In this document: positions 2 to 31,626 of the stretch, piece by piece
How positions within the stretch are numbered: the first letter of the stretch is position 1
Layout: the number at the start of each line of letters is the position of its first letter
NCBI GenBank assembly: GCA_025363675.1
Contig: JANYDJ010000083.1
Coordinates: 1 to 33,014, forward strand
Direction: 5' to 3'
DNA: 33,014 bases
DNA from: Flavobacteriaceae bacterium
GTDB lineage: Bacteria; Bacteroidota; Bacteroidia; UKL13-3
Position numbers and translations under genes: made by a program
Notes under the pieces: generated by a model
The model's input: only the letters and a program-made list of their open reading frames with translations
Databases searched by the model: none
Told to the model about the DNA's origin: nothing

Positions 2-262
2 TGGACGGGGATTGCAGCGGTATATAACAATGATATAAATATATATCCCAACCCCACAAACGGTGATGTGTATATAGAATTAAATTCTTACGCAAACAGA
101 ACATTATATATATATGATGCTTATGGAAAGCAAATTCTTCATAAGAAATTCTCTGACAAAATATATCATATTTCTTTGAACGAAAATTATGCTGCGGGTA
201 TTTATTTCTTTGTGATAGTTGAGGGAGATAGAACGAATATATATAAAGTGATGAAGGATTAA
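2..262 (+). CDS. C-terminal fragment of a T9SS-secreted protein (type A sorting domain), truncated at window left edge
   Basis: Frame 2 is open from the window edge: WTGIAAVYNNDINIYPNPTNGDVYIELNSYANRTLYIYDAYGKQI...GIYFFVIVEGDRTNIYKVMKD*. The IYPNPTNG...GIYF...K pattern is typical of T9SS type A sorting domains. Confidence 0.85.
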   Translation, partial: WTGIAAVYNNDINIYPNPTNGDVYIELNSYANRTLYIYDAYGKQILHKKFSDKIYHISLNENYAAGIYFFVIVEGDRTNIYKVMKD

Positions 263-293
263 TGGTTAGTTGTTAATTATAAATGGTTAATGC
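259..293. repeat. Degenerate heptanucleotide-period array beginning at the stop codon of the preceding CDS
   Basis: Parses as TTAATGG TTAGTTG TTAATTA TAAATGG TTAATGC. The stop codon TAA (260-262) lies in the first unit. Confidence 0.6.
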
Positions 294-349
294 CATTCGG
301 TAGATATTGGAGTAGGTGCAATTAATCCGCCGCGAATGATACAAACATT

Positions 350-379
350 GTAGATACCTCCTATCGTCGGCATGACAAA
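350..379. repeat. Direct repeat B copy 1
   Basis: gtagatacctcctatcg-tcggcatgacaaa, recurring at 480-510 with one inserted g. Confidence 0.8.
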
Positions 380-479
380 GTACTAGGAAGCTGCTTGCTC
401 ATTCTATACTATCATATCGAGAAACGAGATATCTACTAAAACTGCTTAAGTGGAAATATATAAACACACCACTAGCATC

Positions 480-510
480 GTAGATACCTCCTATCGGTCG
501 GCATGACAAA
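480..510. repeat. Direct repeat B copy 2
   Basis: gtagatacctcctatcggtcggcatgacaaa; matches 350-379. Confidence 0.8.
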
Positions 511-516
511 AAAGAT

Positions 517-594
517 TGTCAGTCTGAGTTTATCGAAGACGGCTTGGAGTAGTAGTAAGGTTTGTCGCCCTTCGATAAACTCAGGGTGACAAAC
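517..594 (+). repeat. Dispersed inverted-repeat element A, copy 1 (REP/MITE-like)
   Basis: TGTCAGTCTGAGTTTATCGAAG ... CTTCGATAAACTCAGGGTGACA: 22-bp terminal inverted repeats with 2 mismatches; other copies at 3382 and 21388. Confidence 0.85.
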
Positions 595-641
595 AAGCAA
601 TTTGTTATCTTATATTTGCCTGATGCGTATATCTATCAAGT

Positions 642-953
642 ATGGATTTTAACAATAAAAATTGGGTCGTCTTTTATTTTGCTGGAATCGTTTTATGGCT
701 ATCAATACCAATATGTAATATACTATTGAGCAATAATTATTCACACGCACTATATAATACTTATGGCAACCTCCTTCTTATAAATGTATATATCCAATGG
801 GTATTTATCCTATTAGGCATTAAGTTAGTTATCGATAAAGAGAATGGAATTGCTCTGTTTATAAAACTCATTATATTCTTTAATACGATATTTTTGGCTC
901 TAATGTACTTATTCCTTTTCGCTTTGGGCAGTATGGATACAGGTTGGACATAG
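642..953 (+). CDS. Small hypothetical integral membrane protein
   Basis: 103-aa ORF with several hydrophobic segments (VVFYFAGIVLWLSIPICNILL, LINVYIQWVFILLGIKLVI, IIFFNTIFLALMYLFLFALG). Confidence 0.6.
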   Translation: MDFNNKNWVVFYFAGIVLWLSIPICNILLSNNYSHALYNTYGNLLLINVYIQWVFILLGIKLVIDKENGIALFIKLIIFFNTIFLALMYLFLFALGSMDTGWT

Positions 954-1000
954 AAAATAGAAAACTACAAATAATAATTAAAGTATTTAACTAACTGCCC

Positions 1001-1014
1001 GTGTCGAAAGACAC
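1001..1014. repeat. Short hairpin with GAAA loop
   Basis: GTGTC-GAAA-GACAC. Confidence 0.4.
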
Positions 1015-1083
1015 TAGCGTTCATATATACTTTCAGTCACCCTGCGGAAGACTAAAAGCAGCGTCGGAAGAGGTCACAAATTT

Positions 1084-1911
1084 TTAGAACTGAATCCTTA
1101 TGTTATGTTCGGTAATAACCTTTTGGTCATTTATTTTTCCTGGTTCCCAATACTTATTCTGTTTTAAGAACTTTATACCTACTTCTAATAACTGTTTCTT
1201 AAGTTTTCGATTTGTTGCTTCATTTTGATCGTTAAAGTTTTCTAAAAAGTATCCAGTAGCTATTCCTTCTTTATCAATATAGAAACTTATATCCATAAAT
1301 GGCAAAGCCCCTTCTTTACCTGGCTTTAACTGATTTCTTAAACTATCGCCAAGTAAAAACAAAACATTAATTGTGTGAATATCATATCTAATTTGTTCGG
1401 GCTTAGTATCACAACGATGACTCTGAATAGTGTCATTTGAAAATCCCAACAAACTATCAGCTTGTTTATATAGTTTTTCTTTAAAATCAACTCCATATTT
1501 CTCAGCAATAATCTTGTCCATATATCCCATGTAACATCCTCGTGTTTGCCCTTTCGTCCCTCCCCATCCACTAACGGTTTCGTACTTAAATCTTAAATTA
1601 TATGTTTTACAAAGCTGTTTCAGTTGTTTTATTTGTCTTGGAAAAATAGCAAAACAAGCATCTGTGGGATAACAATAAGTAATATCATTTTTATCAATGT
1701 CTCGTTTGGCTTCTTTTATGTCTTCTTTACATAGCAAATCACTATCTTTTGGATGCTCAATATATTTTATCAGGTAATTAGGAGGGTCTATTATTTCAAC
1801 TCTTCGTCTGTGTTTGTTTGTTTCTTTCTTTAAGGCAGGTTCTTCTTCCCCACAAGAAAAAACAAACAATGTCAAAATATATCCAATAATAAAGATTTTA
1901 TTATTTCTCAT
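1084..1911 (-). CDS. Hypothetical lipoprotein
   Basis: 275-aa ORF with N-terminal signal and lipobox-like cysteine (MRNNKIFIIGYILTLFVFSCGEEEP). Confidence 0.75.
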   Translation of the reverse strand: MRNNKIFIIGYILTLFVFSCGEEEPALKKETNKHRRRVEIIDPPNYLIKYIEHPKDSDLLCKEDIKEAKRDIDKNDITYCYPTDACFAIFPRQIKQLKQLCKTYNLRFKYETVSGWGGTKGQTRGCYMGYMDKIIAEKYGVDFKEKLYKQADSLLGFSNDTIQSHRCDTKPEQIRYDIHTINVLFLLGDSLRNQLKPGKEGALPFMDISFYIDKEGIATGYFLENFNDQNEATNRKLKKQLLEVGIKFLKQNKYWEPGKINDQKVITEHNIRIQF

Positions 1912-1950
1912 TTTAATACTAATGCATCAATTTGATAAAAGGTTGCTTAA

Positions 1951-1980
1951 GTGGTGTCGGGTTTTAAAACCCGACACCAC
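1951..1980. terminator. 30-bp perfect palindrome downstream of kmo; possible terminator or REP-like hairpin
   Basis: GTGGTGTCGGGTTTT/AAAACCCGACACCAC, perfect 15-bp arms without spacer, 13 bp after the kmo stop (minus strand). Confidence 0.55.
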
Positions 1981-1992
1981 TAATACCGAATT

Positions 1993-3333
1993 CTACAAAT
2001 AATCCGCAAACCTTCTTATCACAGGTTCTATAATACTTCTATCTTTTATTTTATCCTCTAGCTTTTGCTCTATAATACTTGATAAAATTTTATCGTTGAT
2101 GGGGCCACGCTCCAGTGCTTTTATATAAGGTGTATTGCTAAAAGTAACCAGCTCGTATTGCGACTGAAATAAATCAGAATATAATTCGCACAAGTCGTGT
2201 TCTATATGTTTGCGGTGAAGGAATTCTGCATCACCAACGCGGTCACTCATTTCATAAAAATTTTGAACTGCGAGTGATGCTATAGCATCTGTATTTGGTT
2301 TGCGTAAATGTTGGTATTGGTCGAATACATTTTTCCAATCGGGCAAATATTTTTCTATACATTCATCCATAATCACACAATCTTCGAACGAACAATTCAT
2401 TCCTTGTCCGAAGAAGGGAACTACGGCGTGTGCTGCATCGCCCAGCAATGCTACTTTACCATCAACAGCCCAAGGCCAGCAGCGAACGGTTACCAATGAA
2501 CCTGTAGGATTTGCAAAAAAATCTTCTATTAAAGTGGGCATTAAGAGTAATGCATCTGGAAATTCTTTTTCGAAAAATTGTATTATATCATCTGGTTTTT
2601 TCAAATTGGCAAATGAGGTTTCTCCCTCCATCGATAAAAATAAAGTACAGGTAAAAGTTCCATCGGGATTGGGTAAAGCTATCATCATAAATGCACCACG
2701 TGGCCATATATGCAATGCATTTTTCTCCAACTTAAATTCGCCATTGGGTCCTGGTGGAATACATAATTCTTTATAGCCCACATGCAAATAACTTTGGCTA
2801 TAATCGAACCTATCTGTTATCTGCAAACGCCCACGGGTAGCGGCAAATGCACCATCGGTTCCTATAATATGATCGGCCATAAATGTTTGCTCACTTCCAT
2901 CGGCCATTTCAAATTTTGCAGTGGCATTTTGTATATCAACATCGGTACATCTCGCATCGAAATGTATATTTATATTTTCATATTCATCGGCCAATTCCAA
3001 CAGTCTTATATTTAACCGTCCGCGTGAAACAGAATATATACATTGTTGCTCGGTACCATAAGGTTGGAAATTCAATTCACCCGTGCGACTATGCATCATA
3101 CGTCCGTACATGGGAATGGCATCGCTCAATATATCTTCTGTAAGTCCAACTTTATCTAATGCATTAATTCCACGATTTGAAAGTGCTAAATTAATAGACC
3201 TCCCCGCAGAAATTTTATTGCTACGCATATCAGACCTTCGTTCAAATAAATCAACTTTAAATCCCCGCCTAGCCATAAATACACTAAGTAATGAACCAGA
3301 AAGTCCGCCGCCTACAATTGAGATATGTTCCAT
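1993..3333 (-). CDS. kmo: Kynurenine 3-monooxygenase (FAD-dependent)
   Basis: MEHISIVGGGLSGSLLSVFMARRGFKVDLFERR (Rossmann GxGxxG), ISAGRSINLALSNRG, LLGDAAHAVVPFFGQGMNCSFEDC; typical KMO motifs. Confidence 0.9.
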   Translation of the reverse strand: MEHISIVGGGLSGSLLSVFMARRGFKVDLFERRSDMRSNKISAGRSINLALSNRGINALDKVGLTEDILSDAIPMYGRMMHSRTGELNFQPYGTEQQCIYSVSRGRLNIRLLELADEYENINIHFDARCTDVDIQNATAKFEMADGSEQTFMADHIIGTDGAFAATRGRLQITDRFDYSQSYLHVGYKELCIPPGPNGEFKLEKNALHIWPRGAFMMIALPNPDGTFTCTLFLSMEGETSFANLKKPDDIIQFFEKEFPDALLLMPTLIEDFFANPTGSLVTVRCWPWAVDGKVALLGDAAHAVVPFFGQGMNCSFEDCVIMDECIEKYLPDWKNVFDQYQHLRKPNTDAIASLAVQNFYEMSDRVGDAEFLHRKHIEHDLCELYSDLFQSQYELVTFSNTPYIKALERGPINDKILSSIIEQKLEDKIKDRSIIEPVIRRFADYL

Positions 3334-3340
3334 GAGGCAA

Positions 3341-3372
3341 ATTTACGATTTACGATTTACGATTTACGATTT
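3341..3372. repeat. Heptanucleotide tandem array (ATTTACG)x4+, immediately 5' of kmo
   Basis: atttacg atttacg atttacg atttacg attt; ends 7 bp upstream of the kmo ATG (3333, minus). Confidence 0.9.
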
Positions 3373-3381
3373 TTTTATAGC

Positions 3382-3478
3382 TGTCAGTCTGAGTTTATCG
3401 AAGACGACGTTCGGAGAAAGATGTTAGTATATATGAGCACCTAGTTTGTCGCCCTTCGATAAACTCAGGATGACAAAC
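3382..3478 (+). repeat. Dispersed inverted-repeat element A, copy 2
   Basis: TGTCAGTCTGAGTTTATCGAAGACG ... TTTGTCGCCCTTCGATAAACTCAGGATGACAAAC; same ends as 517-594. Confidence 0.85.
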
Positions 3479-3540
3479 CTTTAAGGCGTCAACCATGCTT
3501 CGACTCCGCTCACCATAGCATCGTAATCAGGCGTCAGCCA

Positions 3541-3563
3541 AATCGTACATCGTACATCGTAAA
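3541..3563. repeat. Heptanucleotide tandem array (ATCGTAC)x3, just 3' of rsgA
   Basis: a atcgtac atcgtac atcgtaa; lies 5 bp from the rsgA stop (3568-3570, minus). Confidence 0.85.
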
Positions 3564-3567
3564 TAAA

Positions 3568-4491
3568 CTAGTCCATCACATCCTCATTATTATACATACT
3601 CACATAATTATAATAACGACCTTGATTTATTTTCCCTTCTTCTAGTGCTTTTAATACCGCACAGCCGGGTTCATGTATATGGGTGCAATTGTTAAACTTG
3701 CATTGTGATAATAGTTCTCGCATTTCGGGAAAATAGTGGGCAAGTTCTGTGTCTTCCACGCCTACTACACCAAAGTCTCTAATACCTGGTGTGTCTATCA
3801 CTTTTCCTATTCCGGGCAGGTCGAACATTTGGGCAAAAGTGGTGGTATGTTTCCCTTGTCCGCTAAAGCCTGATACATCGCTTGTTTTTTGTATCGCTTC
3901 TGGCACCAGTGCATTTAATAAAGTAGATTTCCCTACTCCTGAATGACCTGCGAATAAGGTAGTTTTATTTTGTATTAACGCAATCAATTCATCAAGTCCG
4001 TGTTTTTGAGTAGCCGATATTCCAATTGTTATATATCCCAAACTATTATACAATGCTTTTATCTCATTATAAAATTCGGCATGGCCATATAAATCAATTT
4101 TATTAAAAACTATACAAGTAGGAATATGATAAGAACCAGTACATACCAAAAACCGATCAATAAATCCGGTAGAAGTTCGTGGGTCAACTAAAGAAACTAT
4201 AATACATGCCAAGTCGATATTTGCTGCAATAATTTGTGTTTCTTTTGATAGTTTATTCGATTTACGGATAACATAATTGTGGCGTTGTAATACCGAAACT
4301 ATATTATAGTCAGGTGCTGCGTCTTGCAATAGTACTTTGTCGCCAACCGCAATGGGATTGGTACTTCGTAGGTTTTGTAATTTAAGTTTCCCTTTTACGC
4401 GGGCTTTAATAGTTTGTCCATCTTCCAATCGCACATCATACCAACTTCCGGTCGATTTATATACAATTCCGTGGAGATGTGTTTCAGCCAT
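3568..4491 (-). CDS. rsgA: Ribosome small subunit-dependent GTPase A
   Basis: Circularly permuted GTPase motifs (VFNKIDL, FAGHSGVGKSTLLNAL, DTPGIRDFG) and CKFNNCTHIHEPGCAV zinc motif. Confidence 0.95.
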   Translation of the reverse strand: MAETHLHGIVYKSTGSWYDVRLEDGQTIKARVKGKLKLQNLRSTNPIAVGDKVLLQDAAPDYNIVSVLQRHNYVIRKSNKLSKETQIIAANIDLACIIVSLVDPRTSTGFIDRFLVCTGSYHIPTCIVFNKIDLYGHAEFYNEIKALYNSLGYITIGISATQKHGLDELIALIQNKTTLFAGHSGVGKSTLLNALVPEAIQKTSDVSGFSGQGKHTTTFAQMFDLPGIGKVIDTPGIRDFGVVGVEDTELAHYFPEMRELLSQCKFNNCTHIHEPGCAVLKALEEGKINQGRYYNYVSMYNNEDVMD

Positions 4492-5570: not shown

Positions 5571-5622
5571 TTATTATTTCTCTTTATTTAAAAAAGGAGT
5601 GCGAAGTTACGCAATTATTTTA

Positions 5623-7086
5623 TCAATATGCTTTGGCAAATAAAACCCTTTGTGTGGAGGGGTTTCCACTCAATATACATTTGCCTGTTTGCTGCTCGTT
5701 ATTTAAAGGAATACAACGAATTGTTGCTTTGGTTTTTTCTTTTATTTTCTTTTCTGTTTCGGCTGTACCATCCCAATGTGCATATACAAAACCAAGTTCT
5801 ACTTTTTGTTCAAAATCATCCCAGGTATCACATATATATGTTTTCTCGGCACGGTTATCCAATGCTTTTTGATAAATGTTTTCCTGAATCTGATCTAACA
5901 AATGCAATACTTTATTTTCCAAATCGGTAAGTGAAACCAATTGTTTTTCTTTGGTATCACGACGAGCAATCTCCACCGTTTGGTTTTCCAAATCGCGTGG
6001 ACCAATGGCTATGCGAATAGGCACACCTTTCAGTTCCCACTCGGCAAATTTGAAACCTGGCTTGTGGGTATCACGGGTATCGAACTTTACGCTAAGTCCT
6101 TTTGCTTTTAGTGCTGCAAATATTTTATCGCCCGCTTCCAATACTTTGGTCTGTTCTTCATCGCTTCTATATATAGGTACTATCACTACTTGTATCGGTG
6201 CCAAGCGTGGGGGTAATACCAAGCCGTCATCATCGCTATGCGACATAATCAAAGCTCCCATCAATCGGGTAGATACGCCCCATGAAGTGGCCCATACAAA
6301 TTCTGGTTTGTTTTCTTTACTCACAAATTTCACATCGAAAGCCTTGGCAAAATTTTGTCCCAAGAAATGCGAGGTCCCCATTTGCAATGCTTTGCCATCT
6401 TGCATCAATCCTTCTATACAATAAGTATCGAGTGCTCCGGCAAATCTTTCGGTTTCTGTTTTCAAGCCTTTAATAACGGGTACTGCTAAAATATTTTCAG
6501 CAAAGTCAGCATATACTTCCAGCATTTTGCGGGTTTCTTCCACAGCCTCTGCTTCGGTGGCATGGGCGGTGTGACCTTCTTGCCAAAGAAATTCTGTGGT
6601 ACGCAGGAACAAACGTGTACGCATTTCCCAACGGACTACATTGGCCCATTGATTTACGAGCAACGGCAAGTCGCGGTAACTTTGTATCCAGCCTTTATAG
6701 GTGTTCCATATAATAGTTTCGGAAGTGGGGCGGACTATTAATTCTTCTTCCAATTTCGCTTCGGGGTCAACCACCATTTCGCCATCTACATTTTTGAGTC
6801 GGTAATGCGTTACCACTGCACACTCCGTGGCAAACCCTTCTACGTGACTTGCTTCTTTGGTAAAAAAAGATTTGGGAATGAACAAAGGGAAATAGGCATT
6901 TACATGTCCTGTATCTTTAAATCTCCTATCCAATTCCTGTTGCATTTTTTCCCATATAGCATAGCCATAAGGTTTAATAACCATACATCCTTTAACGGCT
7001 GCATGTTCAGCTAAATCAGCATTCTTCACCAAGTTATTATACCAAGCAGAATAATCTTCACTGCGTTTTACTTTTTGATTCTCCAT
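5623..7086 (-). CDS. proS: Prolyl-tRNA synthetase; likely start at 7086 ([15 protein letters not shown]) rather than the 7146 ORF start
   Basis: Class II aaRS motifs: [62 protein letters not shown]-terminal ProS_C-like end. Confidence 0.95.
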
Positions 7087-7261: not shown

Positions 7262-8275
7262 ATGAAAAATATTGGATTCGCTGTTTGTATAATAACAGCC
7301 CTTGCACTAGCCAGTTGTGGCACTATAAAAAATACTGCAAGCAATGCAGACGATGTGTATACCATTGGTGGCGATTTTAAACATATACAAAACGACCAAG
7401 TGGCCCGAGAGCAGAGAGCCATTGAGAAAGAACAAGAAAGACAAACAGCCCTGGCAGCTTTATATAAAACCAATACCACAGCAACCACCGTTAATGCTGT
7501 TCCCACCGCTGCAATTGCAAGCACGAATAACCCCTGTAGCTGCAACAATATGTATCCCGGCTATGGCACTTATGGATTTAATACAGGCTATGGTTACAAC
7601 AATAATTATAATATGATGGGAATGGGATATGGTTATAATACCTTTGGTATGGGAAATAATTATCGCAGCCCCTATAGCTATAGCAATTATTATACGCCAA
7701 CAAATTATTATTATAATACCTATTCCACAAACAATACTGGATATACTGAAAATATACAACAGCATTCGGTTCCGCAACAGCACCGCACAACAGGGATTGG
7801 GAGTAGCACACCGGGGCAAAGCAAGGGTGTGAATGCCTCGTTCGATAAGCCTGGGGTTGCTGTTCAAAATACGCCAGCACCTGCCACTGGCAATATGCAG
7901 GTTCATACCCGTAGTACCTATAATAATCCGCAAACTTCTTATACCCCAGTGCCTCAAAACTATCAACCAACACCTCAGGTGCACACCCCAACGGCACAGA
8001 GTTATACCCCTATACCACAAGCTACCCAGCAAAGTTATACCCCCGCTCCACAGCCAGTATACCAATCTAGCTCCAATCAACCTTCTTCGTATTCTACCCC
8101 AGCATCCACTCCTTCATATAGTACACCATCCTATAGCACTCCTTCACCTAGCACTCCTTCTTACAGCACACCCTCGTATAGCTCACCTGCTCCCCGCTCT
8201 GGCAACGGTGGATTTGGCGGGGCTACACAAAATAGTGGCAGTAGCTCACACAGTGGAGGAGGCAGGCACCGTTAA
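7262..8275 (+). CDS. Low-complexity lipoprotein (Tyr/Asn/Gly-rich followed by Ser/Thr/Pro/Tyr repeats)
   Basis: Lipobox ALASC in MKNIGFAVCIITALALASCGTIKN; GYGTYGFNTGYGYNNNYNMMGMGYGYN; SYTPxPQ and PSYSTPSYSTP repeats. Confidence 0.8.
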   Translation: MKNIGFAVCIITALALASCGTIKNTASNADDVYTIGGDFKHIQNDQVAREQRAIEKEQERQTALAALYKTNTTATTVNAVPTAAIASTNNPCSCNNMYPGYGTYGFNTGYGYNNNYNMMGMGYGYNTFGMGNNYRSPYSYSNYYTPTNYYYNTYSTNNTGYTENIQQHSVPQQHRTTGIGSSTPGQSKGVNASFDKPGVAVQNTPAPATGNMQVHTRSTYNNPQTSYTPVPQNYQPTPQVHTPTAQSYTPIPQATQQSYTPAPQPVYQSSSNQPSSYSTPASTPSYSTPSYSTPSPSTPSYSTPSYSSPAPRSGNGGFGGATQNSGSSSHSGGGRHR

Positions 8276-11332: not shown

Positions 11333-11416
11333 AAAGTATAAAGTACCTTATACTTGCTACTTTATACTTAATACCTACTACTTGATACCTTATACTATTT
11401 ACTTTATACTATTATG
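11333..11416. repeat. 12-unit degenerate heptanucleotide array ending in the psd start codon
   Basis: AAAGTAT AAAGTAC CTTATAC TTGCTAC TTTATAC TTAATAC CTACTAC TTGATAC CTTATAC TATTTAC TTTATAC TATTATG; units 2-11 all end in TAC. Confidence 0.9.
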
Positions 11417-12070
11417 ATACACAAAGAAGGATTTGCCACAATTTTTATCGTTACTCTACTATTGGTGGGCATAAATTGGGGGTTGACTTTTATCACCAAA
11501 AATGAAATCATTGTTGGGCTGCTTTTGTTGGCTTCGATAATTGTATTTGGTATTGTATTACAGTTTTTTCGCAACCCCAGCAGGAACACTCCTATTAATG
11601 CCAATAATATTATAGCACCCTGCGATGGCAAAGTGGTGGTAATAGAAGAAGTGGAAGAGCCCGAATATTTCAAAGACAAACGCATACAGGTTTCTATTTT
11701 TATGAATCCTTTTAATGTGCATGTAAATAGAAATCCAATTAGTGGAACCGTAAAATATAGCAAGTATCATCCGGGCAAATATTTGGTAGCTTGGCACCCT
11801 AAAAGCAGTACAGAAAATGAACGCACCACTATTGTAATAGAACAGCCCGAAAAAAAAATGGAAGTACTTTTCCGTCAAATAGCTGGGGCTATGGCTCGCC
11901 GTGTGGTAAACTACAGTAAAGAAGGACAACCCGCCATGCAGGGAGCCGAAATGGGATTTATTAAATTTGGAAGTCGTGTTGATATTTTTTTACCCGTAGG
12001 AACACAGATAAAAGTAAAACTGGGCGATAAAACCGTGGGCGGAGAAAGCATCATCGCTTCTTTTGCTTAA
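11414..12070 (+). CDS. psd: Phosphatidylserine decarboxylase family protein
   Basis: FFRNPSR, SIFMNPFNVHVNRNPISGTVKYSKYHPGKYLVAWHPKSSTENERT, and KFGSRVDIFLP (Gly-Ser pyruvoyl cleavage site). Confidence 0.93.
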   Translation: MIHKEGFATIFIVTLLLVGINWGLTFITKNEIIVGLLLLASIIVFGIVLQFFRNPSRNTPINANNIIAPCDGKVVVIEEVEEPEYFKDKRIQVSIFMNPFNVHVNRNPISGTVKYSKYHPGKYLVAWHPKSSTENERTTIVIEQPEKKMEVLFRQIAGAMARRVVNYSKEGQPAMQGAEMGFIKFGSRVDIFLPVGTQIKVKLGDKTVGGESIIASFA

Positions 12071-12173: not shown

Positions 12174-14012
12174 GTGAATACTAAAATATATTTTCGCATC
12201 TTGGGGTTTGCCCGCAAATCCATGAGTATTGTTCCATTATATATATTATTTTCTTTGATGAGCATTGTATTTGGGATGCTTAATATTATACTATTAATTC
12301 CCTTGTTAAAAGTTATATTTGACAAAGCCCAACCGAAACACCTGCCATCACCTACTTTCAACAATCCGTTCCAGTATTTATTAGATTCTTTCAATTATCA
12401 GTTCGATAAAATATTGATAGAACACGGAAGTTTGGGTTCCTTATATTTTGTATGTGCCGTGGTAATGATATCCGTACTGTTGGCCAATGTATGCCGCTAT
12501 ATGGCCCAGCGTACGATGCTAAAAATACGGGTAAATGTAATCAGAAATTTGAGGCAGGCCATCTATGATAAAATTGTATCGCTCGATTTATCTTTTTTCA
12601 GCAACCAACGCAAAGGCGATTTAATGTCGAGCATGAGCAATGATGTGCAATCTATTGAAGACACTGTGGTTTCAAGCATACAAGTGGTATTTAAAGACCC
12701 TTTGATGATTATTGTATATTTCATTATGCTTTTCTCTTTATCAACCAAGCTCACTTTGTTTACTATTATAATATTACCCCTAACCGGTTTGTTAATTTCT
12801 CAAATAAGCAAGCGGCTAAAAAAAGACTCTGTTGAAAGCCAGAAAACTTTGGGCAGCCTGCTCTCTATTACCGAGGAGACCATATCGGGCACCCGTATTA
12901 TAAAAGCTTTTAATGCACAACATTATTTAAGAGACAAATTTGAAAGCCTCAATTTTTATTATACACGCACCCTCAAACGTATGTTTTACCGACGCGATAT
13001 TGCTTCGCCTTTAACAGAGTTTATGGCCTACGGTGCTATCATCGCTATTATATTATATGTGGGGCCTTTGGTTTTATCTGATAAGAGTGATTTAAGTGCT
13101 GAAGAATTTATAGGATATATTGTTTTTTATGTGCGGATTTTAGACCCCGCCAAAAACATTACCGGAGCTATAGCGGCCATACAGCGTGGGCTGGCATCGG
13201 GCGAAAGAATTTTTGCCATCATGGATGAAGAGCAACATATAGTAGAGAAACCAAATGCCGAAGCCATACAAAGTTTCGAAAAAGATATCACATTTAACAA
13301 CCTCTCATTTGCCTATACTAAAGGAGATACAGGCTATGTACTCAAAGATATAAACCTTACCATAAAGAAAGGACACATGGTGGCACTGGTAGGACATTCG
13401 GGAAGCGGGAAAACTACTTTGAGTGATATGCTGCCTCGCTATTATGATCCAAGCCAAGGCTCTGTGAAAATTGATGGGCACAATTTGAAGGATATTAAAC
13501 TTCACAACCTGCGAGACCTCATGGGTGTGGTATCGCAAGAAGCAATTTTATTTAATGACAGTATATATAATAATATTGCTTTTGGATTACCACACATACA
13601 GCAAGAAGAGGTGGAACAAGCAGCCGCAATTGCCAATGCCCACGATTTTATTATGCAAACTGAAAATGGCTACCAAACGATAATAGGAGACCGTGGGAAT
13701 AAATTAAGCGGAGGGCAAAGACAACGGCTCTCTATAGCTCGTGCGGTGCTTAAAAATCCTCCCATATTAATACTCGATGAAGCCACCAGTGCACTGGATA
13801 CCGAAAGCGAAAAAATAGTACAAGATGCATTATATAAACTCATGCAGAACAGAACTAGTATTGTAATTGCACACAGGCTTAGCACCGTGCAAAGTGCCGA
13901 TATGATAGTGGTGCTTGACAAAGGCCAGATAGTGCAATGCGGCACGCACGAAGAACTGATTACACAAACTGGGATATATAAACAATTGAACGATTTACAA
14001 AAACTGGGTTAA
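12174..14012 (+). CDS. ABC transporter, fused permease/ATPase (MsbA-like lipid exporter), GTG start
   Basis: ABC TM domain; VALVGHSGSGKTTL Walker A, LSGGQRQRLSIARAVLKNPPILILDEATSALD signature and Walker B. Confidence 0.93.
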   Translation: MNTKIYFRILGFARKSMSIVPLYILFSLMSIVFGMLNIILLIPLLKVIFDKAQPKHLPSPTFNNPFQYLLDSFNYQFDKILIEHGSLGSLYFVCAVVMISVLLANVCRYMAQRTMLKIRVNVIRNLRQAIYDKIVSLDLSFFSNQRKGDLMSSMSNDVQSIEDTVVSSIQVVFKDPLMIIVYFIMLFSLSTKLTLFTIIILPLTGLLISQISKRLKKDSVESQKTLGSLLSITEETISGTRIIKAFNAQHYLRDKFESLNFYYTRTLKRMFYRRDIASPLTEFMAYGAIIAIILYVGPLVLSDKSDLSAEEFIGYIVFYVRILDPAKNITGAIAAIQRGLASGERIFAIMDEEQHIVEKPNAEAIQSFEKDITFNNLSFAYTKGDTGYVLKDINLTIKKGHMVALVGHSGSGKTTLSDMLPRYYDPSQGSVKIDGHNLKDIKLHNLRDLMGVVSQEAILFNDSIYNNIAFGLPHIQQEEVEQAAAIANAHDFIMQTENGYQTIIGDRGNKLSGGQRQRLSIARAVLKNPPILILDEATSALDTESEKIVQDALYKLMQNRTSIVIAHRLSTVQSADMIVVLDKGQIVQCGTHEELITQTGIYKQLNDLQKLG

Positions 14013-14075
14013 GTTGTGCATAAAATTCTCAACTATTTAAGCTATTCTTCCTACCTTTGTTTTGTCATTAACTGC

Positions 14076-14762
14076 ATGAAACACATATATAATACTATTT
14101 TATTTGTTTTAATCTCAATGGTTTTGAGTATATCATTTGCAGTTGCTCAAACCCCTGCAAAGCCCAGTAAAAAATTAAATTATTTACAAAGCGACGGCTA
14201 TGCAAAAGCCCTAAAATACGCTGCTACAGAGAACAAGCCTGTGCTCCTATTTTTCAATTCGCACGATTGCCACCAATGCGAAAAATTTAGCAGCGAGGTG
14301 ATGGAAAGTGATACATTTATTAAAGCGATTAAAGGGAAATTTATAGCAGTAAATGCATCCGTAAATAATGATGATGCCAAGAAAGCAGCTATCAAATTTG
14401 GGGTAATGAAACTTCCTTTATTGGTGATGATGCACTCGGCAATGCCCGAGTTTTTTTATATATGCGAGATGACCATGAATGCTGATTCTATGGGAAAACA
14501 AGCAGATGCATTTACCGCCGCCAAAAATCTATATGATCAAATTCTGTTGATGACAAGCACAAATAAAATCAGCAATGATTCTGCATCAGCAGAAATTGCT
14601 CGAAATTATGCAAAACGTGACTACACAAAATATAAAGACAATGAAGCAACATTGCATTGCAAATCGAGAACTTTAGATATTAAATTTTTTACCAAATTTA
14701 AAGATATATATATACAAGAGTGGGAAATACAGAAGAAAAAGGCAGCGGCCAAAAAGCCTTAA
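14076..14762 (+). CDS. Thioredoxin-like periplasmic protein; start likely at 14076
   Basis: Signal peptide MKHIYNTILFVLISMVLSISFAVAQ; KPVLLFFNSHDCHQCEKFSSEVM (CxxC), FGVMKLPLLVMM (cis-Pro). Confidence 0.8.
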   Translation: MKHIYNTILFVLISMVLSISFAVAQTPAKPSKKLNYLQSDGYAKALKYAATENKPVLLFFNSHDCHQCEKFSSEVMESDTFIKAIKGKFIAVNASVNNDDAKKAAIKFGVMKLPLLVMMHSAMPEFFYICEMTMNADSMGKQADAFTAAKNLYDQILLMTSTNKISNDSASAEIARNYAKRDYTKYKDNEATLHCKSRTLDIKFFTKFKDIYIQEWEIQKKKAAAKKP

Positions 14763-15904
14763 AAGTACTTATAGTAGGTCCTGCACATCCTTTGCGTGGC
14801 GGCCTTGCCACTTTTGACGAACGCCTTTGCAAAACATTTAACGACCTTGGGCACCATTGCGAAATTCTTAATTTTAGCTTGCAGTACCCCAATGTATTAT
14901 TCCCCGGAAAAACTCAATATAGCGATGAGCCGGCACCCCAAAATATGATTATAAATACAGAGCTTAATTCTGTAAACCCGCTCAACTGGCTTGCCAAAGG
15001 TTTAAAATATAAAAAACAAAACTACGATTTTTTGGTGTTCCGTTTTTGGATGCCATTTATGGGGCCCTGCTTGGGTAGTATCGCACGTATAGTTAAGTCC
15101 AATAAAAAAACCAAAATTTTAGCCATTGCCGACAATTTAATACCGCACGAAAAAAGAGCTGGTGATCTACTTTTTACCAAATACTTTATCAATTCCACAC
15201 AAGGGCTGCTTACTATGTCGCAATCGGTAATGCACGATATTGATTTGTATTTTCCGGGCAAGCCAAAAGCTTATAACCCGCATCCCATGTACGATTCGTT
15301 TGGCCCTGCCGTGAGCAGAGAAACAGCATTGAAAGAATTGAATCTCGATCCAGATTATCGCTATCTTTTATTTTTTGGTTTTATACGCAAATACAAAGGC
15401 TTGGATATATTACTAGAATCTTTAACAAAAAGTAAATACTTTAACAATGCTACAAAAAAAATTAAAGTAATTATTGCTGGTGAATTTTATGAAGACTCAA
15501 AACCTTATATGGATTTGATAGAAAAATACCAACTACAAGAACATTTAATTTTACACACCGATTTTATACAAAACAGTAAAGTGCCCAATTATTTCTGTGC
15601 TGCCGATATGGTGGTTCAGCCTTATCACAGTGCCACACAAAGTGGGGTTACGCAAATTGCTTACTATTATAATGTGCCGATGTTGGTAACCGATGTAGGT
15701 GGCCTAGCTGAGCTTGTTCCCCACAACCAGGTTGGTTATGTGTGCCAGCCAAATGCAGAATCGGTAGCGACCGCTATCGACGATTTTTTCGACCATAATA
15801 GATACGATTCTATGAGGACAAATGTAGAAGTATATAAAAAGAATTTTTCTTGGAATTCATTGGTCGAAAAACTGATTGGACTTTATAACAATACCAAACC
15901 ATAA
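14720..15904 (+). CDS. Glycosyltransferase family 4 (GT-B), GTG start overlapping the upstream gene
   Basis: VLIVGPAHPLRGGLATFDERL; YLLFFGFIRKYKGLDILLESL; VVQPYHSATQSGVTQIAYYYNVPMLVTDVGGLAELV. Confidence 0.88.
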   Translation: MGNTEEKGSGQKALKVLIVGPAHPLRGGLATFDERLCKTFNDLGHHCEILNFSLQYPNVLFPGKTQYSDEPAPQNMIINTELNSVNPLNWLAKGLKYKKQNYDFLVFRFWMPFMGPCLGSIARIVKSNKKTKILAIADNLIPHEKRAGDLLFTKYFINSTQGLLTMSQSVMHDIDLYFPGKPKAYNPHPMYDSFGPAVSRETALKELNLDPDYRYLLFFGFIRKYKGLDILLESLTKSKYFNNATKKIKVIIAGEFYEDSKPYMDLIEKYQLQEHLILHTDFIQNSKVPNYFCAADMVVQPYHSATQSGVTQIAYYYNVPMLVTDVGGLAELVPHNQVGYVCQPNAESVATAIDDFFDHNRYDSMRTNVEVYKKNFSWNSLVEKLIGLYNNTKP

Positions 15905-25796: not shown

Positions 25797-26222
25797 ATGA
25801 ACAAAAATACAATTAATCGTGGTGTGCAGCGGTCTCCTTGTCCTATCAGTACTTCGCTAGATATATGGGGAGATAAATGGTCGCTGTTAATTATAAGAGA
25901 CATGATGCTTTTCAATAAAAACACGTATGGCGAGTTTTCAAATTCAATGAAAAAAATCGCGACTAATATATTGGCTTCTCGTTTGGTAGATTTAGAGCAG
26001 TCGGGACTAATTAGCAAGGAAGAACACCCAGATAGCAAAGCTAAAATATTTTATAAACTCACACAAAAAGGAATTGATTTGCTGCCCATTATTGCTGAAA
26101 TGAATTTGTGGGCAGCCAAATATTATGAAATTGGGCCCAAGGCAAAAGAGGTAAATAAAATGCTGAAAAAGGACAAGGCTGGTTTTATTAAAAGTAGAAC
26201 TGCGGTATTGAAGAAGTTGTGA
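25797..26222 (+). CDS. HxlR-family transcriptional regulator
   Basis: CPISTSLDIWGDKWSLLIIRDMMLFNKNTYGEFSNSMKKIATNILASRLVDLEQSGLISKEE; conserved N-terminal Cys. Confidence 0.92.
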   Translation: MNKNTINRGVQRSPCPISTSLDIWGDKWSLLIIRDMMLFNKNTYGEFSNSMKKIATNILASRLVDLEQSGLISKEEHPDSKAKIFYKLTQKGIDLLPIIAEMNLWAAKYYEIGPKAKEVNKMLKKDKAGFIKSRTAVLKKL

Positions 26223-26236
26223 GTTGTGAGTTGTCG
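26216..26236. repeat. Heptanucleotide tandem array (GTTGTGA)x3 containing the HxlR gene stop codon
   Basis: gttgtga gttgtga gttgtcg; stop TGA at 26220-26222. Confidence 0.75.
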
Positions 26237-26262
26237 ATGCCTAAATAGTTTTGACCGTTATG

Positions 26263-26311
26263 GGTTATCTGTTATCGGTGCAGGTGCAGACAACAGATAA
26301 CCGACAACAGA
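26263..26311. repeat. Head-to-head heptanucleotide array / hairpin
   Basis: GGTTATC TGTTATC GGTGCAG GTGCAGA CAACAGA TAACCGA CAACAGA; GGTTATCTGTT pairs with AACAGATAACC. Confidence 0.75.
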
Positions 26312-26316
26312 AATTG

Positions 26317-26736
26317 TTAAGCTGTTTTGCTGCTCATGCCCATTATTCTGCCTATGATGGCTCCCACAATAGCAAACATAAGAGTACCTGCTGCCACATC
26401 TACTATTAATGCATTCATGTTTTTAAAACACGTGCTCATGGCATGCATACTCAGGTTTAACGACAATGAAACTAGGAGCCCAATAATGGCACCCTTTTGC
26501 ATACCGATTGACAAGCCACGCGTATTGCTCCAGCCCAGCATTAAAGCAGTAAAATATCCCTGAATAAGGCAACTGAGACCCATTGCCCACCATACCATTT
26601 CTTCCATTTTTCGCATGCCTGCTTGATTCATGTTCTCAGCCATAAAATCTTTAAGAAGGATGCCGTAAATTAACCAACCGAGCAGGAAGAAAGCTACACC
26701 TCCCACTAAACCTCCAAGAATTGTTTTGTTGTTCAT
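26317..26736 (-). CDS. Hypothetical membrane protein; start likely at 26736
   Basis: MNNKTILGGLVGGVAFFLLGWLIYGILLKDFM...; four hydrophobic segments. Confidence 0.7.
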   Translation of the reverse strand: MNNKTILGGLVGGVAFFLLGWLIYGILLKDFMAENMNQAGMRKMEEMVWWAMGLSCLIQGYFTALMLGWSNTRGLSIGMQKGAIIGLLVSLSLNLSMHAMSTCFKNMNALIVDVAAGTLMFAIVGAIIGRIMGMSSKTA

Positions 26737-26882
26737 TTTAGTATTTATTAAGGTTAGAAAAAGAAACAAACATATTTAATTAAGTTGATGATTACCAATT
26801 AATTCAATTATTTTTATCCATACTTTTTAAACATTGGGGCAAAATCGGGTGAATATCATACTTCGGCGGTTTGCATGGACAT

Positions 26883-27680: not shown

Positions 27681-27714
27681 AGATATAGTACAAGGTGGTA
27701 CTTTATTTTTACGT

Positions 27715-27744
27715 TTTGTTTCTTTATAAAAATCCCTAGATTTG
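27715..27744 (+). promoter_or_regulatory. Bacteroidota-type promoter upstream of the sensor kinase gene
   Basis: TTTG (27715-27718), 18-nt spacer, TAGATTTG (27737-27744). Confidence 0.5.
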
Positions 27745-27775
27745 CCTCCTTAATTTAGGTACAAATAAATATCAA

Positions 27776-30727
27776 ATGCAAATAAACTCTTATATATATA
27801 GATTTTTTTATTTGATTTGTGTCTTGCTTTCCTATACCAATTGTTGTAGTCAGGTTAATTATATAACTACGGCCGATGGTCTTTCCAATCGTTATATTAG
27901 TGCTATTATCCAAACCAAAGATGGAGTTATGTGGATTGGCACAGCCAATGGGCTCAATAGTTATGATGGATATAATTTCACACCTTATAATACGTTTACT
28001 GAAGGTATACATTTATCTAGTTCCAGAATCAATTGTTTAATGGAGGACAGCCTAGGAAATATATGGGTGGGTACCAATGCAGGACTCAATAAAATATCGG
28101 AAGATAGAAGAAAAAGTATCTTGATATCCGGTACAGAAAATATGGGTATCTTAACTATTTGTAGTCTGGGTAATAATAGTATATTGGTAGGTAATAACGC
28201 AGGGGGTATTATAAGTATCGATGCCAAGGGCGTAAAAGAAGTGTATCATACTCCCCATAATTATCCAGTGCATCAGCTAGGCGAATATGGGGGTAATATT
28301 TGGTTTTGTAATGAATCGCAATAGGGACTATATAAGTTGGGATTAGATTTTTTTCCCAAAGTTGCATTTAAGTTTAACAAACCCATAGATAAAAATTATA
28401 TTATAGATAATAATCATTTGGTGGTTTCTATGTCCAAGTCAAAAGGCTTGGGAAGTCTTGATATTCGCACAGGTGAAGTAATTGCCGATGCGTATTTAGA
28501 TTCGGTAAACAAGATTTATAGTACTGCCGGTCTATTATATATTGATCGGAATAAAAATTATTGGGCCTCGTACTATGGTGGTAAATTATTGAAAATAAAT
28601 ACCAAAGATAAAACAGTAGTTAATTATAGTAAGTACTTAATTCAAGCCAATTTTGGCAGCTTAGTTACCTGTTATTTTGAAGATAGAACCGGCATGATGT
28701 GGGTGGGAACTGATGGTGGTATTGTTAAAATTCCCTCATCAATACACGAGTTTAGAAACTATTTATATAACAGTAGCAGTGCACAGCACCTTGACATCAG
28801 TACACGAGGGATGCTTGAAAATAAGGAAGGAAATTTATATATAGGGTCGTACGATGGTTTGCTTTTATTAGATATAAAAACAGGCACGTATCAAAAATAT
28901 CAGATCGAGGGGCTTGCTACAAAACCCATACAGCCCAACCCTTTTCAAATGATATGGCTTGATACTAAAAATATATTAATTGCCTCGCAAACCGAAGGGA
29001 TTTTGATTTTTGATACAGAAGACAAAAAATTTAATTATTTATATGCAAATCATCCTAAGTGGGAACGCCAATTGTTTTCAATATGTAAGGACAAATCAGG
29101 AGCAATATGGGTAGGGTCGCATCTCGGACTAAAAATATATAATTTAGAAAAAGATACACTCAGTAATTATGCAGGTGCAGGGTTAGAATCTAATATAAAA
29201 ACAGCCAATATATGGAGTATCGTAGAATCGGAAACAGGAGATTTGTGGGTGGGGAGTAACAGTGGATTGTTTGTGCTCGATAAAAATAGACAAGTTAAAA
29301 AGGTATATAACCTACACTCTACCCCGGCACTTAACAATGAAGAAATATTATATATATTGCCCGATAAAAATAATGTATTTTGGCTTGGCAGTCGCGGTGG
29401 GGGCTTAATGGCCTTGAACTATAGTAGTAACACCTTGCTAAGGTACACCACCTCAGAAGGGTTGAGCAACAATACGGTGTACGGTATGATAATGGAAGGC
29501 GATTTTATTTGGATAAGTACCGATAATGGACTTTCTAGATTTGATAAACACACCAAGTTATTTAGGAACTATTATGAGAAGGACGGAATTGGAGAGAATG
29601 AATTTAACTCGGCTTCATTTATTAAAAGTAAAAAGGGGAGGCTTTATTTTGGAGGGATTAATGGTATTACCTCTTTTAACCACAATGATTTAACAAATGA
29701 TGCAGGCAATGTATATATTATACTCACCTCATTGGTTAATAGCAAAGGCGAGTTGCTAAATAAACCCATTTTACAAGATACGCTTATCGATATTGATTTA
29801 CCCTATTCCAATAAATTTTTAAGTATCAATTTTGCTTTAACGGATTATTTTTACCCGTCACTCAATAAATTTTACTATAAAATTGAAGGGTTTGATGATG
29901 ATTGGAAAAGCTTGGAAGGGCAGAATTTTCTACGATTGAACGACCTCCCTTCAGGCCACTACCAGTTGTGGATTAAAGGAAAAAACATGAATGGTGCCGA
30001 AAGTAAAAATATGATCAAGATAAATTTATCAGTGGCCCAAATATATTATAAAGAAATTTGGTTTTGGGTATTGATACTTGTTTTAATTTCGACAATTATA
30101 TATATGATATTTCAGTTTCGATTGAAACAGTTGGTTAAGTTACAAAATTTGAGAACTTCTATTTCTAGCGATTTACATGATGAGGTGGGGAGTATGCTCA
30201 CCCGCATTTCTATATTAACCGAGCAGGCCAAATATAAACACAAACAGATTCCAGAAATGGAACAGATAGCCAAAGCCAGTCGTGAGGCTACTACCACCAT
30301 GAGTGATGTGTTGTGGAGTGTGGACGCACGAAATGACAAGATGGGAAACCTTATTGACCGCATGCGTGAACATGCCGATAAAATGTTATTGCCGCTCGAT
30401 ATATATATCAACTTTAAAGTAGAAAGCATCGACACCAATCAAATTGTTACCATGCAAATACGCAGAAGTGTGCTCTTAATTTTTAAGGAAGCAATTCATA
30501 ATATAGTGAAGCATGCAAATGCAACAACAGTATTGATAGTAATAGAAAATAAGGGGAATGATACTATACTATATATTAAAGACGATGGTAAAGGACATAA
30601 CGAGAAAATGACCGGTGGCAGCGGGCAGGGTTTAAAAAATATGCAAATGCGGGCAGATGAAATTAAAGCGAAATTATGGATAGAAAAGGAGGAAGGATAT
30701 AAGGTTATTTTATATTTTACATTTTGA
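27776..30727 (+). pseudogene. Two-component sensor histidine kinase (reg_prop propeller, Y_Y_Y, TM, HisKA_3/HATPase), interrupted by one in-frame TAG at 28322-28324
   Basis: ORFs 27776-28324 and 28337-30727 are in the same frame: ...IWFCNESQ*GLYKLGLDFFPKVAFKF.... Propeller repeats lie on both sides; DLHDEVGSMLTRIS H-box; DDGKGHNEKMTGGSGQGLKNM. Confidence 0.75.
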
Positions 30728-30797
30728 TTTTCAAACGTATAAAATAAGATATTTTATATTTTAATTAACAAGCGAATAAAATATAAAATGTTCCACT

Positions 30798-30813
30798 ACA
30801 TCTTTGTGTAGTT
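30798..30813. promoter_or_regulatory. Shared motif copy 1, upstream of the response regulator
   Basis: ACATCTTTGTGTAGTT; 15/16 match to 31638-31653. Confidence 0.45.
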
Positions 30814-30846
30814 TTGTTTATATATTAAAATAAAGTAAATTGCAGC

Positions 30847-31488
30847 ATGAATGAATTGAGTAATTTGGATATAGCTATTGTAGAAGATGACCAGGTAGTG
30901 CGTGAAGGGTTGAAAGATTATTTACAATCAGAAGCTTTTACCAAAAATGTTTGGGCAGTTGAATCAATGGAATTATTTTTTGAATCTATTTCAAAAGGGA
31001 AAAGTGCAGATGTTATTTTATCCGATATTGGACTGCCGGGTATGTCAGGAATTGAGGGTATTAAATTGATTCGGGAAAAGTTGAAAAAATCGGATATTAT
31101 TATGCTTACTGTTTTTAAAGATGAGAACAGAATTTTTAAATCGCTGTGTGCGGGTGCAACCGGCTACCTGCTTAAGGATACCCCTTTTGAAGAGATAAAG
31201 CAAGCCATATATATTATAAGAAATGGAGGCAGTTTTATGTCGCCCGCAATCGCTCGCAAAGTAGTAGAGCACTTTAATCCGCTACCGCAGAATAGTGATA
31301 ATAATTTAACTGCAAGAGAGAAACAAATTATACAAGGTATGGTAGATGGACTTAGCTATAAATTAATTGCCGACCGATTGGGAATTTCTATCGATACCAT
31401 TCGTTATCATATAAAAAATATATATAATAAACTGCAAATTAATAGTCGTACGCAGTTATTGAATAAAAGTTTTAGAGGAGAGATTTAG
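30847..31488 (+). CDS. NarL/LuxR-family response regulator
   Basis: Receiver DIAIVEDD...VILSDIGLPGMSGIEGI...IIMLTVFKDE, GYLLKDTP; HTH LTAREKQIIQGMVDGLSYKLIADRLGISIDTIRYHIKNIYNKLQINSR. Confidence 0.95.
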   Translation: MNELSNLDIAIVEDDQVVREGLKDYLQSEAFTKNVWAVESMELFFESISKGKSADVILSDIGLPGMSGIEGIKLIREKLKKSDIIMLTVFKDENRIFKSLCAGATGYLLKDTPFEEIKQAIYIIRNGGSFMSPAIARKVVEHFNPLPQNSDNNLTAREKQIIQGMVDGLSYKLIADRLGISIDTIRYHIKNIYNKLQINSRTQLLNKSFRGEI

Positions 31489-31516
31489 GACAGGATTTAG
31501 GGTTCGGGATTCTGGG
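31484..31516. repeat. Degenerate heptamer-like array overlapping the response-regulator stop codon
   Basis: TTTAGGA (cagga) TTTAGGG TTCGGGA TTCTGGG; consensus TTYRGGR. Confidence 0.5.
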
Positions 31517-31560
31517 GCGTACGTCAGCCGTATTTTGTTATACAATTGTTATTCCCAAAA

Positions 31561-31626
31561 AATCATGCATCATGCATCATGCATCAACCATTAACCATTA
31601 ACCATCAACCATCAACCATTAACCAT
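31561..31626. repeat. Continuous heptanucleotide array with two unit families
   Basis: AATCATG CATCATG CATCATG CATCAAC CATTAAC CATTAAC CATCAAC CATCAAC CATTAAC CAT. Confidence 0.95.

Follow-up and report, generated by a model that had tools for sequence, protein, structure and literature searches.

Seven-base arrays in a Flavobacteriaceae genome as probable arms of hairpin elements related to S23/IVP genes

The heptanucleotide repeats of cyanobacteria, Xanthomonas, Beggiatoaceae and Bacteroidota have been known since about 1990, and their origin has gone unexplained for decades. The stretch of Flavobacteriaceae DNA analyzed here (33,014 nt, hereafter the window) contains several such arrays, and the question it raises is why the period is kept while the unit differs from locus to locus. 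A preliminary description had ascribed the arrays to a common process or factor recognizing or copying 7-bp units regardless of sequence, and had named a genome-wide excess of lag 7 as the test beforehand. We analyzed 584,780 bases of the host genome, 86% of which are coding. Periodic runs and windows were almost wholly restricted to lag 7 and multiples of it. The excess was present: 43 intergenic arrays have lag 7, against 0, 1, 0 and 0 at lags 5, 6, 8 and 9, and Markov-shuffled controls gave a mean of about 0.1 lag-7 arrays, with a maximum of 1 in 20 shuffles. A sample not selected for repeats (226 kb, C1-C20) yielded 11 arrays at lag 7, and 0 or 1 at each lag not divisible by 7. As had also been claimed, the arrays are non-coding, 46 of 47 lying mostly outside ORFs. 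They consist of tandem, intergenic, degenerate 7-nt units, as heptanucleotide SSRs or STRRs do.

Many of these arrays form inverted pairs, one array on each side of a conserved core, and so make up the arms of hairpin elements. In the window, the loci lie between protein genes, outside 23S rRNA, and touch start or stop codons as described. No IVP gene (PF05635, the 23S_rRNA_IVP / S23 / TIGR02436 four-helix bundle protein) is present among the scanned window ORFs. Seven arrays had been listed, of which TRF called those at 3341, 3542, 26215 and 31562/31582, and, as degenerate, the one at 11344; the array at 259-292 was weak (70% matches, score 33), and that at 31484-31516 was not called.

At 259..300 (+ strand), a degenerate left arm of the TTAATGG family is closed by the boundary word GCCATTCGG (292-300), and both the unit family and the boundary word recur elsewhere in the host genome. 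The array at 3341..3372 (- strand) contains 4.6 copies of ATTTACG (100% in TRF); read on the - strand, (CGTAAAT)n stops some 8 nt upstream of where a FAD-monooxygenase-like ORF (1993-3333) starts. Its position is kept in two congeners, with the unit variants ATTTACG/ATTTATG and AATTACG. Inverted with respect to this array is the one at 3532..3563 (+ strand), composed of the boundary word CGTCAGC (3532-3538) followed by (ATCGTAC)2.9 (TRF 3542-3561, 100%). It lies immediately 3' of the stop of an rsgA-like ORF (3568-4491, - strand), so that the pair brackets the gap between the rsgA and FAD genes.

The element at 11333..11413 (+ strand) has a short left arm, AAGTATAAAGTA, and a longer right arm of TTTATAC/TTGCTAC/TTGATAC heptads, which TRF reports at 11344-11413 as a degenerate 7/14/21 array. 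It ends at the ATG of a psd-like ORF (11414-12070) and folds as a hairpin (z = -4.7); the orthologous site in genome G001 also has an array. Arms at 26215..26311 (+ strand) lie between convergent stops: (GTTGTGA)n, which includes the TGA stop (26220-26222) of an HxlR ORF and is called by TRF as AGTTGTG at 100% (26215-26234), is followed by GGTTATCTGTTATCGG and then by the inverted CAACAGATAACCGACAACAGA, which reaches the stop of ORF 26317-26769 (- strand). This element also has a hairpin fold (z = -2.2). At 31484..31528 (+ strand), a left arm of GGGATTC-type heptads, which reads TTTAGGA|CAGGATT|TAGGGTT|CGGGATT|CTGGGG, precedes a core remnant, CGTACGTCAGC (31518-31528). The first unit of the arm, TAGGACA, provides the TAG stop (31486-31488) of a response-regulator ORF (30847-31488), and an intact counterpart, a GGGATTC-type element, is found at locus L082 of the host genome. 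The right arm at 31557..31631 (+ strand) contains three to four CATCATG units that pass in register to CATCAAC/CATTAAC (TRF: 31562-31586, ATCATGC, 100%; 31582-31627, CATCAAC, 89%); its unit family is present at dozens of host loci.

The core, CATTCGGCGTCAGC, has 35 host copies at no more than one mismatch and none for its reversed control; at two mismatches the counts are 54 and 5. It is confined to the genus, whose three members contain 35, 26 and 7 copies against 0-2 in each of 61 other genomes of the family. A few unit families (AAGGRRT, TAGTCGT, TAATGGT, ATTTACG and others) are reused genome-wide, and boundary words are common to several arrays. The claim that unit sequence is unconstrained is therefore refuted by the limited families and shared boundary words, as well as by the AG at a fixed phase in most IVP-associated 5' arms described below. 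Stop codons in all frames were considered as the reason for 7-mers and rejected: the sense arms of the ATTTACG and GGGATTC families lack a stop. The non-coding elements, which we call solo elements, end in inverted repeats that can pair into a stem, in the window at 26215-26311 and 11333-11413; being short and present in many copies (the 35 core copies), they resemble MITEs.

Elements abut stop codons, lie at gene 3' ends or sit just upstream of start sites, their stems are stable (-38 vs -17 kcal/mol for shuffled sequence), and their positions are kept between species while the sequence differs. All this would suit functional RNA hairpins (terminators, 3'-end stabilizers or RNase III sites) under host selection, in which heptads would simply be a practical way to build a stem and IVP genes would be passengers. 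We consider that explanation quite unlikely; it leaves the fixed 7-/8-nt period and the AG anchor unexplained, the core is not conserved family-wide, and some sites are polymorphic for presence, the empty allele having no arms. Locus-specific compensatory pairing between arms was looked for and not seen: the arms of one element pair no better than arms exchanged within its family. Arm pairing goes by family, with no locus-specific covariation.

In the host itself (genome G000), all four IVP genes are bracketed by arrays of heptads and have units or the core in common with solo elements. At one orthologous gap (L065), a solo element in G000 has an IVP element as its counterpart in G001. Beyond the host, scanned with a tight IVP alignment, about 140 IVP genes of many phyla as a set display inverted arms of period 7, or of period 8 in one group of relatives, with AG in a fixed phase. 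Flanks of IVP genes match at lag 7 (at least 11 of 14 positions) in 37% of cases, at lag 14 in 32%, at lag 8 in 11% and at other lags in no more than 4%, with 9% for control flanks. For 80 named IVP loci from many phyla, the values for lags 7, 14 and 8 were 39%, 36% and 21%, against 9%, 7% and 3% for controls. Inverted arms are found at 60% of IVP loci, and at 2.7% when partners are shuffled. Among the 5' arms of IVP loci, AG occupies a fixed phase in 49 of the 69 built from heptads and in 23 of the 26 built from octads; the ATTTACG family of the window (3341, 3541) lacks this anchor. Heptad or octad arms flank 13 of 15 cyanobacterial plasmid IVP loci, and heptad arms flank an Azospirillum IVP gene within 23S rRNA. 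The arms of a Bernardetia plasmid IVP gene are (TTAGTGA)n and not TAACTGA, the link for which this locus was examined. Searches for IVP in phages gave no match, and PADLOC revealed no defence link.

One group of IVP relatives has period 8 instead of 7, and within the genus Flavobacterium 8-nt and 7-nt arms both occur, following the IVP relative present. On the full IVP tree the two periods are strongly clustered; among proteins less than 55% identical the clustering is modest (7 changes vs 9.4; ~8-13 of 500 shuffles). An alternative is that the polymerase slips with a footprint of 7 nt, the idea of Mrazek 2007 as cited in PMC4679880 and PMC4692102, by which the arrays would be ordinary long SSRs produced by the replication machinery and unrelated to IVP. 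Unit numbers do change in steps of 7 nt, units do turn over in register, and the cited work ranks heptamers first among the long SSR classes of most bacterial genomes. Slippage probably still drives copy-number change. As the origin of the arrays it is unlikely, given their inverted pairing around a conserved core, their greater density around IVP genes than around other genes of the same loci, the dependence of period on the IVP relative in Flavobacterium, and empty sites without any array. Nor does slippage alone explain the replacement of whole elements at a fixed site, seen at L067/L084, where the arm family differs wholesale between congeners and both core and hairpin layout stay the same.

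The empty sites come from homologous copies of three Nostoc plasmid loci, at which 12 empty copies in all have neither heptads nor IVP and full copies have both arms and IVP; 3-nt intergenic gaps correspond to armed elements at the same sites. Because empty sites have neither, the arms travel with the element. The comparisons are unpolarized, so loss at the empty sites is possible. A possible 5-nt target repeat, TTCTA, occurs at one Nostoc IVP locus only, and none of the solo elements compared within the genus of the window had a clean empty site. The three Nostoc plasmid loci contradict the idea of IVP genes homing into heptad arrays that were already in place, with arms as targets rather than parts of the element. 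Solo arrays in G000 are indeed much more numerous than IVP genes (about 49 per Mb in the sample not selected for repeats, against 4 genes), and close IVP relatives do have different arm families, as homing would have it; with 3-nt gaps becoming armed elements, we nevertheless regard it as very improbable.

We conclude that the window arrays are likely arms of the solo members of a hairpin element family in which a PF05635 gene is found in the coding members; units, boundary words and core held in common suggest this link. Rather than independent microsatellites, most arrays are inverted arms of a single element family associated with the S23/IVP gene. A common process with a fixed register stands, whereas its indifference to sequence does not, in view of the families, the AG anchor and the core; of the three mechanisms put forward in the preliminary description, a protein with 7-bp spacing is retained as a working hypothesis. 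A full element would consist of a 5' arm of ~7-nt units, mostly xAGxxxx and C-poor, the IVP ORF and a complementary G-poor 3' arm, placed between genes and typically beginning at the stop of the gene before it. Solo elements may arise by ORF loss or be mobilized in trans. The RNA stem would make insertion tolerable and provide a stop, and by analogy with 23S rRNA intervening sequences (IVSs) it is probably cut by RNase III. An IVP oligomer may recognize units that are anchored by AG and evenly spaced, thereby selecting or maintaining the 7-nt (or 8-nt) register, which we infer to be set by the protein. To our knowledge, S23/IVP proteins have no known function, though their fold is solved, and we know of no nuclease or recombinase activity.

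More tentatively, such recognition may drive the spread and re-copying of hairpins, and cyanobacterial STRRs, Xanthomonas GGGAATC, Beggiatoa TAACTGA, trnL P6b heptads and 23S rRNA IVSs could possibly form one mobile class without a known recombinase. On the main reading, seven-base repeats gain a testable origin, with the same arrangement in many bacterial phyla, and joining them with S23/IVP as one element gives each problem the other's evidence. This predicts the binding target of IVP, the landing sites of new copies (stop codons and rRNA helices) and a period that is kept while sequence varies, and it flags the elements as a common source of assembly breaks and of hypothetical genes inside operons. 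Apart from the Coxiella IVS heptamers, we provisionally found no earlier report of a heptad-IVP link in the open-access PMC literature.

Among known systems, cyanobacterial STRRs were reportedly described by Mazel et al. in 1990 as free-standing heptanucleotide repeats without a linked protein. They share with the host arrays degenerate intergenic 7-nt units, and the comparison drawn earlier is apt, since STRR-like arms flank cyanobacterial plasmid IVP genes; the host unit families differ from the published STRR units known to us. Intergenic heptads near start or stop codons are likewise known as TAACTGA repeats in Beggiatoaceae, Cyanobacteria and Bacteroidetes (PMC4679880) and as GGGAATC repeats in Xanthomonas and Nostoc, with 70 (Xcc) and 75 (Xac) convergent inverted pairs in Xanthomonas (PMC4692102). 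Those studies examined one dominant unit per genome and proposed no IVP link, whereas the host has several families; the solved S23 structure 2GSC is XCC0516, by its locus tag an Xcc protein. The P6b stem of the Nostoc trnL (UAA) intron has one of two heptad motifs and underwent repeated wholesale class replacement with the stem kept (PMC4476775), which resembles L067/L084, although P6b lies inside a group I intron and has no ORF. In Bacillus, tandem repeats of constant size and variable sequence (52 and 20-21 nt), for which a protein needing fixed spacing was proposed, also keep the period and not the sequence, but the periods differ and the parts of that account considered here describe neither inverted arms nor a linked gene (PMC8161180). 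REP/BIME elements have a conserved stem, a GTAG/CGTC foot tag and a RAYT transposase; the host elements, with a conserved loop or core and a variable stem, are set apart from them by which part is conserved. The closest counterpart is the 23S rRNA IVS of Coxiella, Leptospira and Alphaproteobacteria, with an S23/PF05635 ORF between terminal inverted repeats and a long stem, and in Coxiella with tandem GACAGAT heptamers upstream of S23p in strain-dependent copy number (PMC4990558). Host elements differ in lying between protein-coding genes at stop codons, usually without an ORF, and in having arms of regular heptads from many unit families. The solo elements of the window, with no PF05635 ORF inside and located outside 23S rRNA, are therefore related to IVSs and are not IVSs themselves; on the best reading, the S23/IVP element class is widespread and includes the 23S rRNA intervening sequence as a special case.

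The window corresponds to contig C271 in a MAG of 3.53 Mb and 279 contigs, which is 87% complete and fragmented, with breaks often at arrays; the genes of the window are consistent with Bacteroidota (Por secretion tail, Omp28, Reg_prop kinase). ORF calls were heuristic. TRF detected the period-7 arrays of the window, of which the one at 259-292 is weak and that at 31484-31516 falls under the threshold. In a 584,780-base sample of the host, approximate repeats were found at lag 7, the lag being the offset at which a sequence matches itself (n=47), and also at lags 14, 21, 28 and 35, with nearly none at others. When only intergenic sequence was counted, lag 7 gave 43 arrays and lags 5, 6, 8 and 9 gave 0, 1, 0 and 0, respectively; shuffled intergenic sequence contained a mean of 0.1 arrays at lag 7. 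Part of this sample had been selected for its array hits, so the lag test was re-run on contigs not picked for repeats, which gave a matching lag profile (11 arrays in 225,757 bases, ~49 per Mb). The excess of lag 7 over neighbouring lags and shuffled sequence, on which the preliminary description had made its claim depend, is therefore present genome-wide.

The same description regarded the unit sequence as unconstrained, which was not borne out. A few unit families recur in the host (GGRRTAA/TTAYYCC, TTAGTCR, CAGTRRT, GGTTAAT/ATTAACC, TTTATAC-like, ATTTACG, GGGATTC and CTTCCTA/CTTCGGT), many arrays terminate in the words CCATTCGG or GCGTCAGC, and the anatomy of the compact elements consists of a left arm of ~7-nt units (heptads), the core CATTCGGCGTCAGC, and a right arm of inverted units. 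The arrays are not sequence-free microsatellites. At two or fewer mismatches the core matched 54 times, versus 5 for a reversed control; it is confined to the host's genus, with 35, 26 and 7 copies in three members and 0-2 in 61 other genomes of the family. In 14 of the 16 elements with a stop on that side, the stop codon of the left neighbour lies 17-31 nt from the core, at the outer arm end. In the window, the TAG stop of the response regulator gene (31486-31488) and the TGA stop of the HxlR gene (26220-26222) both lie within the first heptad unit. The RNA MFE was -37.7 with an element's own arms, -38.2 with arms swapped within the family and -17.2 after shuffling; since the own arms of single elements pair no better than family-swapped ones, complementarity is a property of the unit family.

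Other repeats were also seen. One further dispersed repeat, palindromic and TTCGACTCCGCTCACCAT / GAGTTTATCGAAG-like, occurs at 3400-3535 of the window, on the reverse strand near 111-165 of locus L022 and at 6066-6112 of locus L023, and is often interleaved with ATTTACG-family arrays and the words AATCAGGCGTCAGC. ORF 7262-8275 contains coding repeats of 15/30 bp (8107-8187) and 27 bp (7601-7663), apparently unrelated to the heptads, and a 37-bp near-duplicate AT-rich repeat with short ATATTTT heptads lies between the kinase and response-regulator ORFs (30706-30783).

Over the rsgA region, the congeners G001 and G002 share ~89% and ~86% DNA identity with the window, and arrays are present at orthologous gaps in both. 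At the FAD-gene site, the window has ATTTACG units, G001 has ATTTACG/ATTTATG and G002 has AATTACG. At two other loci the arm family was swapped wholly (GGRRTAA to AGTRRTC-type at L067, TTAGTCG to CAGTAGT-type at L084) while core and hairpin layout were kept, and at L061 the core is inverted between congeners.

One gap (L065) holds a compact solo element in the host and, in G001, a PF05635 ORF between GGRRTAA arms with the common core. This gene, present in 4 copies in the host and 7 in G001, encodes the S23/IVP protein (NCBIfam TIGR02436, four helix bundle protein), with 2GSC (XCC0516) and 2RLD as solved-structure relatives. Heptad arrays bracket all four host IVP genes and both G001 genes inspected, with units or core common to solo elements. 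The 3' flank of one host IVP gene (L034, contig C6) is a long tandem 14-mer array (AATTTAGACATTAG), a two-unit heptad period, that reaches the contig end. Contigs C168, C169, C174 and C175 and loci L022 and L042 start or finish in or close to arrays, so the assembly probably breaks there.

The association extends across phyla. Among 67 IVP genes, almost all from Bacteroidota genomes, 37% had 120-nt flanks that reached 11/14 matches at lag 7, 32% at lag 14, 11% at lag 8 and ≤4% at any remaining lag; for flanks of other genes from the same loci, the lag-7 value was 9%. For 80 named IVP loci from many phyla, the values were 39%, 36% and 21% at lags 7, 14 and 8 (controls, 9%, 7% and 3%). Upstream and downstream flanks were complementary in 60% of 141 IVP loci, versus 2.7% with shuffled partners. 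The 5' arms are C-poor and the 3' arms G-poor (10% each in heptad arms), and 49 of the 69 heptad 5' arms, together with 23 of the 26 made of octads (8-nt units), keep AG in constant phase; for GA, GG and AA, with the same composition expectation, this holds in 20, 20 and 18 of the 69. Periods other than 7 were seen in the IVP elements L201 (8) and L203 (about 6) and in a group of octad loci, L251-L267; the labelled octad loci are spread over Bacteroidota, Nitrospirota, Thermodesulfobacteriota, Pseudomonadota and Nomurabacteria.

On a tree of 136 IVP proteins, period 7 versus 8 required 9 changes and shuffled labels required 27 (0 of 500 shuffles); for named hosts, period changed 6 times and the Bacteroidota/other label 13 times. 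Below 55% identity the signal was modest (7 changes versus 9.4 shuffled), and Flavobacterium has both heptad and octad elements. Thus, the period passes on with close kin and is labile at depth.

Filamentous cyanobacteria are known for heptanucleotide STRRs. A plasmid search with an IVP protein matched 32 records, chiefly from this group, and 13 of the 15 plasmid loci read had arms of heptads or octads; examples are (GGGAGTA)n/(TCCCTAC)n from Nostoc edaphicum and (AGCTAAA)n from Pseudanabaena. Pseudanabaena and Anabaena plasmids (L332, L334) carry an IVP element at the equivalent position between cas6 and cas4, with different arms (AGCTAAA and CAGGTGA).

Among homologous gene strings of Nostoc plasmids, some contain the element and others lack it. 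Five copies of gap A|B are 3 nt long, with the sequence ..TTC TAG GTT ATG or one close to it, and three read TTC TAA followed by ATCAGGAGTCAGGAGTCAGAAGTCAG-type arms, IVP (truncated in one) and CTGACTTCTGACTCCTGACTTCTGGATTCTAG-type arms. Gap B|C is empty in five copies and holds IVP with different arms (GGGAAAA) in one; the TraM gap is full in two and empty in two, and in a fifth copy its arms enclose a stretch in which no IVP is annotated. A 5-nt repeat, TTCTA, borders one insertion. Arms and IVP therefore appear and vanish jointly, at stop codons, in a comparison unpolarised as to gain or loss. On the Nostoc C057 plasmid (L352, 495-695), a gap that holds an IVP element on other plasmids has a different small ORF, so this stop-codon gap may accept insertions in general.

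We consider it quite likely that the arrays belong to an S23/IVP-linked element family. Solo copies could derive from IVP elements or be mobilised by them. Insertion would be tolerated because the arm provides a stop codon and the RNA stem is probably open to processing, by analogy with rRNA IVSs and RNase III (PMC4990558). That the S23/IVP protein sets the register is possible, at slightly under an even chance; the protein, a pentamer according to the X. campestris structure as cited in PMC4990558, might fix the spacing via AG contacts.

Heptads are known as a class (PMC4679880, PMC4692102 and the works cited there), and polymerase slippage, translational regulation and G-quadruplexes have been proposed for them. 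In open-access text, no link of heptad arrays to S23/IVP genes was found beyond a remark on the Coxiella IVS, in which S23p is preceded by three GACAGAT heptamers, or by two in some strains (PMC4990558). An IVP ORF absent from the record's gene table lies within a plasmid-borne 23S rRNA gene (Rfam RF02541) of Azospirillum lipoferum 4B (L360, AZO_p2, 13701-15430), and its stem is made of heptads (11/14 at lag 7 on both sides, ≤8 at other lags tested). IVS/S23 elements are already known in 23S rRNA. Whole-arm replacement, as in the elements described here, also occurs in the trnL P6b heptad hairpins (PMC4476775).
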